In this document: positions 14,085 through 29,072 of the stretch, in pieces
How positions within the stretch are numbered: position 1 is the first letter of the stretch
How the letters are laid out: each line of letters starts with the position of its first letter
Source: Loktanella sp. 3ANDIMAR09
GTDB taxonomy: Bacteria > Pseudomonadota > Alphaproteobacteria > Rhodobacterales > Rhodobacteraceae
Reading direction: 5' to 3'
NCBI RefSeq assembly: GCF_001420005.1
Contig: NZ_LJAK01000001.1
Location: forward strand, 1-64,000
DNA: 64,000 nucleotides
Made by a program: the position numbers and the translations under genes
Notes under the pieces: model-generated
Told to the model about the DNA's origin: nothing
Seen by the model: the letters and a program-made list of their open reading frames with translations, nothing else
Database searches by the model: none

Positions 14085-14098
14085 GGGGCGGCCCTCCG

Positions 14099-14170
14099 CA
14101 TCATCTTGCCCGAAATACTCCGGGGTCCGGGGCAGCGCCCCGCGAGGGGTGGGTGGGCGGGCCCACCCAC
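14099..14170. repeat. dispersed GC-rich hairpin repeat, copy 1 (bchY-bchZ gap)
   Basis: The plus strand reads CATCATCTTGCCCGAAATAC, then TCCGGGG, then a GGGGCAGCGCCCC hairpin and a GGGTGGGTGGGCGGGCCC tail. The head matches copy 4 at 37178 almost base for base; the GGGGCAG-GCCCC core matches copies 2, 3 and 5. It fills the only sizeable gap inside the bchCXYZ-puf transcript. Confidence 0.8.
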
Positions 14171-14193: not shown

Positions 14194-15798
14194 TCATATC
14201 ATCTGCTCCGCTTTGGCGGCGCGGGCCTGTTTATCCAGCTTCTTCTGGTGCTGGGCACGAAAATCGGGTCGCAGGTTGGGTGCGCCTTCCCAGACACCGG
14301 CTGTGTCGCCATGGCCCACACCCTCGAAAAAGCCCTTCATCCTGGCCATCCGGTCGGTATTGCTCATCGCGGCGGTGACAACCTGTTGCAGGCTGCCCGC
14401 CCCGGCAGGCCCCATCAGGGGCCGGGCGGAAATCAGGTTGGTGAAATACAGCGCCGGGATGCCCAGCTCCTTGGCCTTTTGCACGACCGGCGTCGTGCCG
14501 ATCGCAAGGTCGGGACGCACGCCTTCCATGGCCGACAGATCATCCTCGAGGCTCGCACGGAATTTGACTTTGACGCCCTTCGCCTCCAGCCAGGCTGCAT
14601 CATCGGCAGACCAGGGCGTCTTGGGGCAAGCCGTGCCCACGTAGGGCACATGTGCGCCGCTTTCGATCAGCAGCCGTGCGACCAGCAATTCAGAGCCCTC
14701 ATAGCCCGACACCGTGATCGTGCCCTTGACCTGCGCCCCGGACAGAGCGCCCTTGATCGCAGGCAGGAAAGCGTTTTGTGCAGCAGCGATTTTGTCAGCA
14801 GCGATACCGTAAGCGTCGCCGATACCCGCCAGCCATGCGGCGGTGCCATCCAGTCCGACTGGTGCAGAACCGACAACCCTGCGGCCGGCGGCCTGAAATT
14901 CGCGCACGCTTGCGGTGTAGAACGGATGGATCGCCGCCGCGACGCCACAGTCGAGTGCTGCGTAGAGCTCACGCCATTCACGGGTCGGGACAGTTGGACC
15001 GGCAGACAGGCCCATCGGGGCCAGCATGGCACCGATCATCATCGGATCGGCGGGGAACATTTCGCCCAACAGGGCGACGGCGGGCAGATCCGATGCTGCG
15101 CGCTCGGGGCGCGCGACGGGTCCGGCCTCTGCCTCGGCACGGGCATAGTTCAGCATCGCCCCTGCGAGAACGTCCTTTGCCTCGGCATGGGTGGGGATGC
15201 CGAAACCGGGCACATCGATTCCGATGATGCGCACGCCGTTGATGTCCCTGGGCAGCAACCGCAGCGGCACACCGGACGCGGTCGGCACGCAGAGGTTCGT
15301 CACCACGATCGCGTCGTAGCGATCGGGATCTGCCATGTCGTGAACGCTTTCGCGGATGTCCTCGAACAGCTTGCCCGTGACCAGCGATTCAGAATTGAAC
15401 GGCACATAACCAACAGACCGGCGCGCGCCGTAGAAATGCGACACGAACGTCAGGCCGTAGACGCAGCAGGCAGAACCCGACAGGACCGTCGCCACGCGTT
15501 TCATCCGCAAACCGACACGCAGCGACCCGAATGCGGGGCACATCGATTGTGGCTGGTCGTGCGGTCCCTTGGGATAATCGACCGCATATTGGTCGAGAAT
15601 GTCGGATTGGCCCGCATTGCGCGCGGCGGTGTCCAGTTCGGATTTCGATGCGCACAGACCTGCGTCAGCAGGGGGCTCTGCCCCCGATGCTATCGCATCT
15701 CCCCCGGGATATTTTTGACCAGAAGAAGCCGGGGCCGCGGTCACCATGACCGCGCCGGAAGCGTCCTTGCTGACGTGAAATCCCTCACGCATCGTCAT
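14194..15798 (-). CDS. bchY: chlorophyllide a reductase subunit BchY
   Basis: The protein (534 residues from this start) is the BchY subunit of chlorophyllide a oxidoreductase. From [21 protein letters not shown] onward it is typical, with cluster cysteines in [15 protein letters not shown] and [10 protein letters not shown]. The start at 15798 has GAGG six bases upstream and overlaps bchX by 14 bases; a second ATG at 15792 is possible. Residues about 24-44 ([16 protein letters not shown]...) coincide exactly with a copy of a dispersed repeat found elsewhere only between genes, so the N-terminus appears to carry a repeat-derived insertion. No in-frame Met lies between the repeat and SMCPAF. 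The subunit identity is firm. Confidence 0.95.
15668..15729. repeat. dispersed hairpin repeat, copy 2, inside bchY
   Basis: GCAGGGGGCTCTGCCCCC forms the hairpin, and CCCCCGGGATATTTTTGACC followed by AGAAGAAGC is the tail. Copy 3 at 29009-29072 shares the same hairpin and the tail AATATTT-TGACCAGAAGAAGC. Here the element is read through in frame as part of bchY. Confidence 0.85.
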
Positions 15799-16789
15799 AG
15801 ATGACCTCGAGGCTGTCCTTGATGGCACCATGCTTGCCGCGCATGTCCGTGTCGGTGGCGGGCACCAGTTCATAGTCGCCGCCCGTGTCCTTGCTGTCGA
15901 ACAGGGCGAGCAGGCCGTCCTGATCCAGCGGCGTCGGGCGGACGGGGGGCGCGATGCCCACGGCCTCTGCCAGGCCCTCGAACATCGGGCCCCACTGCGA
16001 TTTATGCGTGCCGACAATCTGATAGTTCGCCGATTTCTTGCGCAGATCATCGTCTTGGGGGATGGCGGACAGGACCGGGATATCGACGGCCTTTGCAAAG
16101 GCTTGCGCCTCACCGGTGCCATCGTCCTTGTTGATCACGAGGCCCGCGACCCCGACGTTGCCGCCCATCTTGCGGAAATATTCCACTGCAGAGCAGACGT
16201 TGTTTGCCACATACAGAGATTGCAGGTCGTTGGACGCCACCAGGATGACCTTTTGCGCCATGTCCCGTGCGATGGGCAGACCAAATCCGCCGCAGACCAC
16301 GTCGCCGAGAAAATCGAGCAGGACGTAATCGAAATCCCAATCGTGAAAGCCGAGCTTTTCCAGCAGTTCGAACCCGTGGATGATACCGCGGCCACCACAG
16401 CCGCGACCGACCTCCGGCCCGCCGAGTTCCATCGCAAACACGCCGCCGCGCTTGAAACAGACGTCACCGATCTTGACCTCTTCGCCGGCCAGTTTCTTCT
16501 TTGAAGAGGTTTCGATGATCGTGGGACAGGCCTTGCCGCCGAACAGCAAAGAGGTCGTGTCGGATTTGGGATCGCAGCCGATCAGCAGCACGCGTTTGCC
16601 CATTTCGGCCATCATGTGCGACAGGTTCGCCAGCGTGAAGGATTTGCCGATGCCACCCTTGCCGTAGATCGCGATGATCTGCGTCTTGGACGTGGGTTCC
16701 CCCTGAGGCACCTCGAGCGTGGCCTCTGCATTGGCCTCGTCGCGCAGGGTGCGATCGTAATCCTTGAGGTTCGGGATTTCGTCTTTCAT
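15785..16789 (-). CDS. bchX: chlorophyllide a reductase iron protein BchX
   Basis: The 334-residue NifH-like ATPase delivers electrons to BchYZ. It has the P-loop [10 protein letters not shown], the switch motif GCDPKSDTT, and Cys ligands for the bridging 4Fe-4S cluster in VGRGCGGRG and DVVCGGFG. The N-terminal extension of about 45 residues before the P-loop is normal for BchX. The start at 16789 overlaps the bchC stop (ATGA); a longer in-frame start at 16822 is less likely. It overlaps the start of bchY. Confidence 0.97.
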
Positions 16790-17721
16790 GCGGCGTTCCA
16801 ATCGAGGATCATTTTCAGGCAAGCGGTGTCGGTAAAGGCCGTATGATAGGCCTCTGCCGCGTCACGCGCCGGGCGCGTGTGGGTGATGAGGTCGGACAGG
16901 TTCAAAAACCCGCCCTCGACCAGGTCGCGGGTGGCGATCATGTCGGAGGCCTGCCATTCGGCGGCGATGCGGATGCGGGCTTCGCGCATGAAAGCCGGGG
17001 CAAAGGCGAACTGGATCGGATCGGTATAGAACCCGGCCAGCGTGATCTCGCCGGCCTTGGCCAGCCGACCGATGAGGTCCGGCAGCAGGCTGGCCTGGCC
17101 GGACGCGTCGTAGATCGCGTTGTAATCGCGGCGCTGATCGGTGGCGGGATCGAGGACATCATACCCCTGCGCACCACCACGCCGCGCGGGGTCGATGTCC
17201 CAGACGGTCGGGGCGGGAGCGCCAGACAGCACGGTCAGACGGGCCAGCAGGCGACCCAGAGTGCCGTGGCCCACAATGAGGTCAGGAGCGGATTTACCAG
17301 CGCCCGTCATCGCGTGATAGGCGGTCGCGGCGAGGGCCAGCAAGGCACCGGCAGGCCCGTGGCCTGCGTCCATTTCCGTGACCCGCGCAGCCGGTGTGAC
17401 CAGTGTCGCTGCAGAGGCCCCGAACAGACCATGCGCATCGCGGTAGCAGGTGGCACCGGGAACAAAGACGGTTGCACCGACAGGCACTGTCGGGTCATGC
17501 GATTCGACGACCTCTCCCGTTGCCTCGTAGCCGGGCACCAGCGGGTAGCCCATGCCGGGAAACGGCGGCATCGCACCGGACCAGAACAGCTTTTCGGTTC
17601 CGGTGGAAATGCCCGAGTGGCGCACAGCCACGACAACATCCCCGGCAGACGGCGGCGTCAAGGCCACCGATTCGACACCGATACGGCGCGGCTCATGCAA
17701 GAGGATGGCGTCAGTATTCAC
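16786..17721 (-). CDS. bchC: 3-hydroxyethyl bacteriochlorophyllide a dehydrogenase
   Basis: The 311-residue protein oxidises the C3 hydroxyethyl group of bacteriochlorophyllide to acetyl. It is a medium-chain dehydrogenase relative: the GroES-like half contains [13 protein letters not shown] and [14 protein letters not shown], and the nucleotide-binding half has [13 protein letters not shown]. It opens the bchCXYZ-puf part of the superoperon and has its own promoter with two PpsR sites just upstream (17795-17837). Coupled by ATGA overlap to bchX. Confidence 0.97.
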
Positions 17722-29008: not shown

Positions 29009-29072
29009 GCAGGGGGCTGTCTGCCCCCGCGGCTGCGCCGCCCCCCGAGGAATATTTCTGACCAGAAGAAGC
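29009..29072. repeat. dispersed hairpin repeat, copy 3
   Basis: GCAGGGGGCTGTCTGCCCCC, a GC-rich spacer, then CCCCCCGAGGAATATTTCTG and ACCAGAAGAAGC. It lies between the starts/ends of the HyuA-like and NUDIX genes and shares hairpin and tail with copy 2 inside bchY. Confidence 0.85.

Follow-up and report, generated by a model that had tools for sequence, protein, structure and literature searches.

The bchY gene of Loktanella sp. 3ANDIMAR09 carries, in frame, one copy of a dispersed hairpin-plus-tail element. All coordinates refer to the window, that is the whole stretch of 64,000 nucleotides that was analysed (contig NZ_LJAK01000001.1, positions 1 to 64,000). On the evidence set out below we consider it probable that this copy is an ancient capture in a linker of BchY and that the family to which it belongs is read at its tail by a trans-acting factor whose specificity drifts.

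The gene encodes chlorophyllide a reductase subunit Y and occupies 14194..15798 on the minus strand. It was identified by the TIGR02015 equivalog (725.6 bits, match spanning residues 74-495), by its reading frame and by its homologous N-terminus, and it is flanked by bchX (TIGR02016) and bchZ (TIGR02014). bchX (15785..16822, minus strand) overlaps the start of bchY, and 56 nt separate its stop codon from the element, on the tail side. The element copy was located at 15669..15728 by sequence, genome repeat search, tail pattern and alignment. It lies on the plus strand, antisense to bchY, in the order CA-GGGGGCTCTGCCCCC-GATGCTATCGCATC-T-CCCCC-GGGATATTTTTGACCAGAAGAAG. Its parts, all on the plus strand, are a perfect 6-bp GC hairpin (hairpin 1, GGGGGC-TCT-GCCCCC, 15671..15685, supported by sequence, alignment and covariation), a perfect 5-bp second hairpin (hairpin 2, GATGC-TATC-GCATC, 15686..15699, from the alignment, in which its arms change together between species), a run of C and the tail (15706..15728), whose dialect positions GGGA and ACC were assigned by tail pattern and dialect scoring. 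On the minus strand, translation and segment comparison identify 21 element-derived bchY codons at 15667..15729 (residues 24-44, predicted coil). A sequence-only reading of this DNA had proposed a hairpin and tail read in frame inside bchY, and our analysis bears this out. In the AlphaFold2 model the insert is coil and the block pLDDT values for residues 21-50 (32, 28 and 26) are among the lowest in a model that is weak overall (mean pLDDT 64.9, residues 1-89 nearly all below 50). An Rfam search over 15500-15900 returned a sole match, far below its gathering score.

Searched with the element, the whole genome yielded 40 matches at E<=1e-3. The tail pattern, allowing up to two mismatches, occurs at 46 places and its reversed control at none, numbers that chance would by far not give. 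The same reading had taken the bchY repeat for a copy of a dispersed intergenic repeat, and these counts confirm that it is dispersed. The family consists of a GGGGGC hairpin, an optional second hairpin and the tail ATATTTNNRACCAGAAGAAG. When the 46 copies are aligned on their tails, most of them read GGGGCGCTGCCCC or a close variant, followed by the optional second hairpin, CCCC, GGG and the tail; some copies have other short GC hairpins directly 5' of the tail. The intergenic sister copy at 29009..29072 (plus strand), which has a counterpart with a changed tail at the corresponding locus of Loktanella sp. DSM 29012, matches the bchY copy with E 3.3e-7 and 80% identity (75% ungapped over 53 nt). 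The two copies had been described as alike almost base for base. This description fits hairpin 1 and the tail but not the middle hairpin, which in the sister copy has another sequence that is again palindromic.

A degraded copy in sense orientation with the foreign tail spelling GGAGTATTTCGGGCAAGATGATG lies in the gap between bchY and bchZ (14098..14141, minus strand, from the sequence). By eye its tail spelling GGCAAGATGATG resembles those of other genera and the palindrome GTGGGTGGGCCCGCCCACCCAC precedes it; similar palindromes also stand ahead of the copies L054, L071 and L172 (by eye). In four other Loktanella genomes (G001, G005, G007 and G008) a tail match begins about 70 nt past the end of the bchY match. 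Given the copy on the bchX side and the second one in the bchY-bchZ gap, two elements in opposite orientation may bracket bchY. Close pairs of copies placed tail to tail occur elsewhere in the genome of 3ANDIMAR09 (G000:C5:164313-164371 with 164504-164562), with similar pairs in G001, G002, G005, G155 and G163; by eye this is the orientation of most close pairs listed, and G122 has one in the opposite orientation. The palindrome CCGAATTTTCGCGAAAATTCGG was seen ahead of the element in the 3ANDIMAR09 (G000) copies L063 and L064, and the counterpart of L063 in G006 (L247) has a matching change on both of its arms. Another repeat within the window is a 21-nt tandem array at 6487-6952 (16 registers listed), which encodes a long run of AAPAEEE-type heptads within a 313-residue minus-strand open reading frame (6161-7102) with an N-terminal membrane-like stretch (by eye).

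Outside the genus, the pattern TATTTN{3,6}CMAGAWGAAG matches 61 of 149 genomes of the family and has no match in the other 88, while its reversed control matches one genome. By hand count 31 of the 61 have at least ten matches. The tails listed outside Loktanella vary genus by genus, and the number of element copies per genome ranges from tens to about 150.

bchY is present in seven of the nine Loktanella genomes searched. All seven genes have 531 codons counted from REGF and carry an insert of the same length (21 codons), in one case decayed. In this decayed copy (G008) hairpin 1 and the tail are gone and the codons are kept. At the former tail position it shows a perfect palindrome on the bchY strand, GCCCGAT-AAA-ATCGGGC (L027 1565-1624). 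We prepared 82 bchY loci, of which 81 were readable (L152 was left out) and 74 lie outside the seven Loktanella. No recognisable element copy was found in these 74; the scan recovers six of the seven Loktanella copies and misses the decayed one, so decayed copies elsewhere would escape it too. A loose tail match in L112 was a chance match at its start codon. Three of the 74 (L092, L095 and L110) are titled Loktanella; the BchY tree places them apart from the clade of the seven, and they are without the insert. This tree, built on 81 rows from the part of BchY that follows the insert, joins the seven Loktanella sequences in one branch with 98/89 support, from a bootstrap that is not fully settled. 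The branch is nested among insert-free lineages, which indicates that the element was gained once and inside the gene. By these sequence comparisons a single acquisition took place, in the ancestor shared by the Loktanella genomes studied.

The sequence-only reading had also allowed for a start-region extension. In that case translation of BchY would begin only downstream of the repeat, which would then belong to the bchX-bchY intergenic region. The TIGR02015 match starts only at residue 74 and the N-terminus is poorly conserved, as such an extension would have it. Many of the 74 other loci, however, carry the same N-terminal motif upstream, for example MTREGFEVSYDAAGEVSII in L134. In relatives this motif is followed by a linker that is variable in length and sequence and then by a conserved segment with AARxAG. 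The residues upstream of the insert are under protein constraint, with pN of.083-.091 compared to pS of ∼.49 (.091/.496 over all seven species), and the frame is kept in 7/7. With homologous residues upstream in element-free relatives, we regard a start extension as the least credible of the readings considered here. The absence of a recognisable copy from the other bchY loci, taken together with the shared upstream residues, points instead to an internal capture in the ancestor of the genus. An insertion of about 20 residues unique to this strain or genus had been named as what would support the reading. The insert is genus-wide (7/7) and, which had not been foreseen, lies in a variable linker. 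This linker has 34 residues in the seven Loktanella and 21-36 in the 27 other rows measurable by pattern (25 of the 27 between 24 and 32), so that compared to most relatives Loktanella has gained between a few and 13 residues in net length rather than a clear-cut 20. The element thus replaced linker or entered a short one, and exact boundaries cannot be given.

The closest named relative found is Loktanella sp. DSM 29012 (G004), with a BchY that is 98% identical. Between these two strains the insert shows 0 differences over 63 positions, compared to 8.3% in codons 100-400 (p ∼.004). In the six species whose copy is intact, pS of the insert is.283 compared to.480-.605 elsewhere and pN is.131 compared to.056-.108; over all seven species the values are.379 compared to.496-.661 and.201 compared to.056-.113, respectively. 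At the level of sequence, low pS together with high pN is the opposite of protein constraint. Of the 60 alignment columns 19 vary among the six intact copies: ten are in hairpin 2 and five are dialect positions, and the remaining ones are a free tail position, a position in the loop of hairpin 1, a spacer position and an edge position.

Hairpin 2 occurs in bchY in three stem spellings (GATGC/GCATC, GTCGC/GCGAC and GCAGG/CCTGC), each of them fully paired. The stem is alike in G000, G004 and G006 and identical in G001 and G005, while the tails differ. Three of its five pairs change on both sides compared to 1.6 after shuffling, a weak measure as 44 of 500 shuffles reach three. The covariation score is.242 compared to.056 for shuffled alignments, with 0 of 500 as high, and it falls to at most.079 when the partner is slid by 1-3 columns. 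These scores call for caution: the alignment includes the decayed copy and has six distinct rows, scores above those of shuffles can arise from relatedness among the sequences, and the structure itself was taken from one of them. One explanation for the presence of the copy is that it is a passive relic of a single insertion and merely slow to decay, for which the decayed copy in G008 and the variability of the linker in relatives could be cited. Such a relic is already disfavoured and we consider it very improbable, since the surrounding synonymous divergence reaches.48-.61 over the six species and nearly all changes within the copy are loop changes, paired co-changes or changes at dialect positions. 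The kept hairpins and the species-specific spelling suggest that something in the cell still maintains the bchY copy.

The tails are nearly uniform within a genome and different between genomes. All counts of these dialects cover only tails ending in AGAAGAAG, as the pattern requires. We observed GGGA...ACC in G000, G004 and G007, GGGA...GCA in G006 (GCA in 20/20 scored copies), GAGG...ACG in G001 (ACG in 41/44 scored copies), GAAG...ACC in G005 (ACC in 59/60, including the nnrE copy described below) and GGGA...GCC in G002 (17/17 listed). G003 has GAGG in 40 and ACC in 48 of the 50 listed among its 58 copies (hand count), and among the seven copies listed for G008 five have GGGA and six have ACG. 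For all six intact bchY copies the dialect of their own genome scores best or lies within 0.3 log units of a genome with the same dialect. Among the 720 possible assignments of the six copies, six do as well; as three of the genomes share one dialect, this is the most that the design, a sample of six related genomes with an intact bchY copy, can show. With the dialect the encoded amino acids also differ from those of the 3ANDIMAR09 BchY (G to R and P to L in G001, P to F in G005 and G to C in G006).

The change of dialect took place at fixed loci. For G006 we considered 21 of the 24 listed copies, consisting of 20 fetched copies and the one in bchY. Of these, 18 sit at the locus of a 3ANDIMAR09 copy (16 placed by both flanks, bchY by gene and L246 by one flank), and in 18/18 cases G006 has GCA where 3ANDIMAR09 has ACC or CCC. 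For L242, L252 and L256 no such locus was matched. One tail position has a C in the bchY copies of G001, G005 and G007, and only G or A in the other scored copies of these genomes (44 in G001, 60 in G005 and 32 in G007). The dialect bases on both sides of this private C differ between G001 and G007. That the C was kept amid differing dialect bases argues for change base by base rather than for wholesale replacement of copies.

Uniform dialects that switch in place are usually read as homogenisation. The leading rival to a drifting factor is concerted evolution, in which copies overwrite each other's tails by short gene-conversion tracts or templated rewriting, without any factor or selection per site. 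It is favoured by the near uniformity of the dialects in G001 and G006 with their switch in place and by the three different palindromes of hairpin 2 in bchY. It does not sit easily with the private C, which survives in three bchY copies between differing dialect bases, nor with the stem of hairpin 2, which stays the same (G000, G004 and G006) or identical (G001 and G005) despite differing tails. To account for both, the conversion tracts would have to be very short and skip the C. If conversion affected only the tail, in short tracts, it could look like change site by site, and we rate concerted evolution by such tracts as unlikely, though as the strongest of the alternatives.

A second capture was found in nnrE of G005 (NAD(P)H-hydrate epimerase; TIGR00197, PF03853). 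Here a copy in sense orientation (L294) encodes RGPAPVPPKYLKPEEGD between WPEL and RRAVVLCGPGNNGGDG. The nnrE search covered 46 genomes, of which 35 matched, and returned 30 loci, from which the 17 with the motif were used; it gave no match in 3ANDIMAR09 itself, in G002 or in G004. Three of the 17 loci hold the element (G005, G001 and G003) and one holds a degraded stretch (G008), L323 has an unrelated longer loop and the remaining 12 have a short link. The three captures and the degraded fourth correspond to the loci L318, L319, L320 and L322. By comparison with these relatives the L294 capture is real. The three copies read GAAG...ACC in G005, GAGG...ACG in G001 and GAGG...ACC in G003, in each case the dialect of the genome itself. 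Both scored copies (2/2) fit their own dialect by the criterion used for bchY, and the G003 copy was judged by eye.

Gene contexts were obtained with a home-made codon-usage gene caller. In 3ANDIMAR09 one of the 46 copies is in a gene (bchY), 16 lie between convergent, 26 between codirectional (13 with and 13 against the element) and three between divergent genes. For G005, 60 of the 66 listed copies were considered, leaving out bchY and five others: 24 are convergent, 32 codirectional (19 with and 13 against), one divergent and three were called inside genes. Among 20 copies in G006 there are eight convergent, ten codirectional (2 with and 8 against) and two called inside genes. Two of the inside calls in G005 (L275 and L283) look like errors of the gene caller by eye, and those in G006 (L248 and L251) align with loci that are intergenic in 3ANDIMAR09 (L064 and L055). 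Divergent gaps account for 4 of 102 intergenic copies in 3ANDIMAR09 and G005 compared to 28 of 74 other gaps (p 9e-9), a rough background taken from the same loci minus the element gaps. An intrinsic terminator consists of a stem followed directly by a U tract, in the sense of the gene. A terminator scan found none at the bchY copy; at the end of some other copies a stem stands directly before GATATTTTT (by eye). A one-way terminator would not be expected to lie in both orientations in codirectional gaps; this mixture speaks more for a function that is two-way or at the DNA level (a roadblock or an insulator, for example) than for a classical terminator. A role as the 3' end of bchX, 56 nt past its stop codon, is possible for bchY; it is not general, because the nnrE copy in G005 lies downstream of a divergent gene.

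The element had been called mobile-type. This can hold for an ancient insertion only, as 45 of the 46 copies are matched in DSM 29012 by a copy at the corresponding position; for L168 there was none among the DSM 29012 stretches compared. A search for a RAYT / Y1 transposase (PF01797) was negative in all nine Loktanella genomes (0/9), with a control search positive in 5 of 14 known genomes. Active mobility is ruled against by these two results and no present mobility was seen. Across 44 intergenic pairs between 3ANDIMAR09 and DSM 29012 the fixed tail positions differ by 0.8%, the hairpin region by 4.5%, the free tail positions by 12.9% and the flanks by 10.5% and 14.8%; the copies were found by the tail pattern, so the conservation of the tail among intergenic copies is partly built in.

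We propose that a dispersed hairpin-plus-tail element was captured once, in frame, in the N-terminal linker of BchY in a Loktanella ancestor. As the reading frame is kept in 7/7, the insert would have been translated ever since. The family would mark gene 3' ends as a structured feature, and a putative trans-acting factor, most likely a sequence-specific DNA-binding protein, would recognise its tail. The specificity of the factor would drift between species, and the sites would follow base by base and in place, coding copies included. A factor drifting in this way would most simply account for tails that change throughout a genome at the same time and yet base by base. Since the linker tolerates amino-acid changes, it would be the element and not the peptide that is kept by selection. 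Against this stands bchY of G008, which lost the element and kept the codons, so that the site is dispensable. Least certain is the task at gene ends, which would probably be to halt or insulate transcription or else to shield the ends of mRNAs, whichever way the element points.

More broadly, and only tentatively, Rhodobacteraceae may possess a trans-acting system, either a DNA-binding protein of drifting specificity or templated rewriting, that keeps tens to ∼150 hairpin elements per genome in a species dialect and enforces it even within coding sequence. If this is true, amino-acid changes in BchY and NnrE are a consequence of changes in the element, and we know of no described counterpart for such a chromosome-wide class of elements. 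The captured copies point to the putative factor that reads the tail. They also serve as a natural experiment, in which selection on a nucleic-acid element can be told apart from selection on the protein that it encodes. For annotators they are a warning that variable linkers in conserved enzymes can be derived from elements.

A literature search, mostly without subscription papers, returned no description of a Rhodobacteraceae element of this kind in the texts available. The dialects resemble those of the DNA uptake sequences of Neisseriaceae, described in PMC3630211 as species-specific spellings that follow phylogeny, and the tails could accordingly be a watermark of this type spread by biased transformation. 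Unlike uptake sequences, which occur in thousands of free copies, the element has tens to ∼150 copies per genome and its tail is tied to its hairpin: 40 of the 43 exact tail 11-mers in the genome lie within the element, so the tail is not scattered alone. We therefore consider a watermark very improbable. REPs of the GTAG and CGTC families are hairpin repeats found mostly downstream of genes, between codirectional or convergent genes, and some lie within genes, where dimers or groups encode 20-30 residues (PMC3733652). Like REPs mobilised by RAYTs, our element is palindromic, dispersed, 3' of genes and depleted between divergent genes. In contrast, no RAYT is present in 9/9 Loktanella genomes, none of the 46 copies has a constant GTAG/CGTC tag beside the hairpin (by eye), and the element has a long conserved tail on one side with dialects that change in place. 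A close parallel in description to the captures in bchY and nnrE are the Rickettsia palindromic elements, short palindromic repeats that lie in frame in unrelated protein genes (PMC10969869). The Rickettsia elements are ∼150 nt long whereas ours has ∼60 nt and is mostly intergenic (45/46 copies in 3ANDIMAR09), and its coding copies track species dialects, of which the accessible part of PMC10969869 makes no mention. In-frame palindromic elements are thus already known from Rickettsia and, as intragenic REPs, from several species (PMC10969869 and PMC3733652). What seems new, as far as the literature was searched, are the two captures and the tracking of dialects inside coding sequence. Intragenic palindromic elements tend to be treated as passengers tolerated by the protein (PMC3733652, accessible part), whereas the two captured copies appear still to act as members of a DNA family at the cost of amino-acid changes: the bchY copy keeps its hairpins through paired changes, and the copies in bchY and nnrE both match the dialect of their genome.
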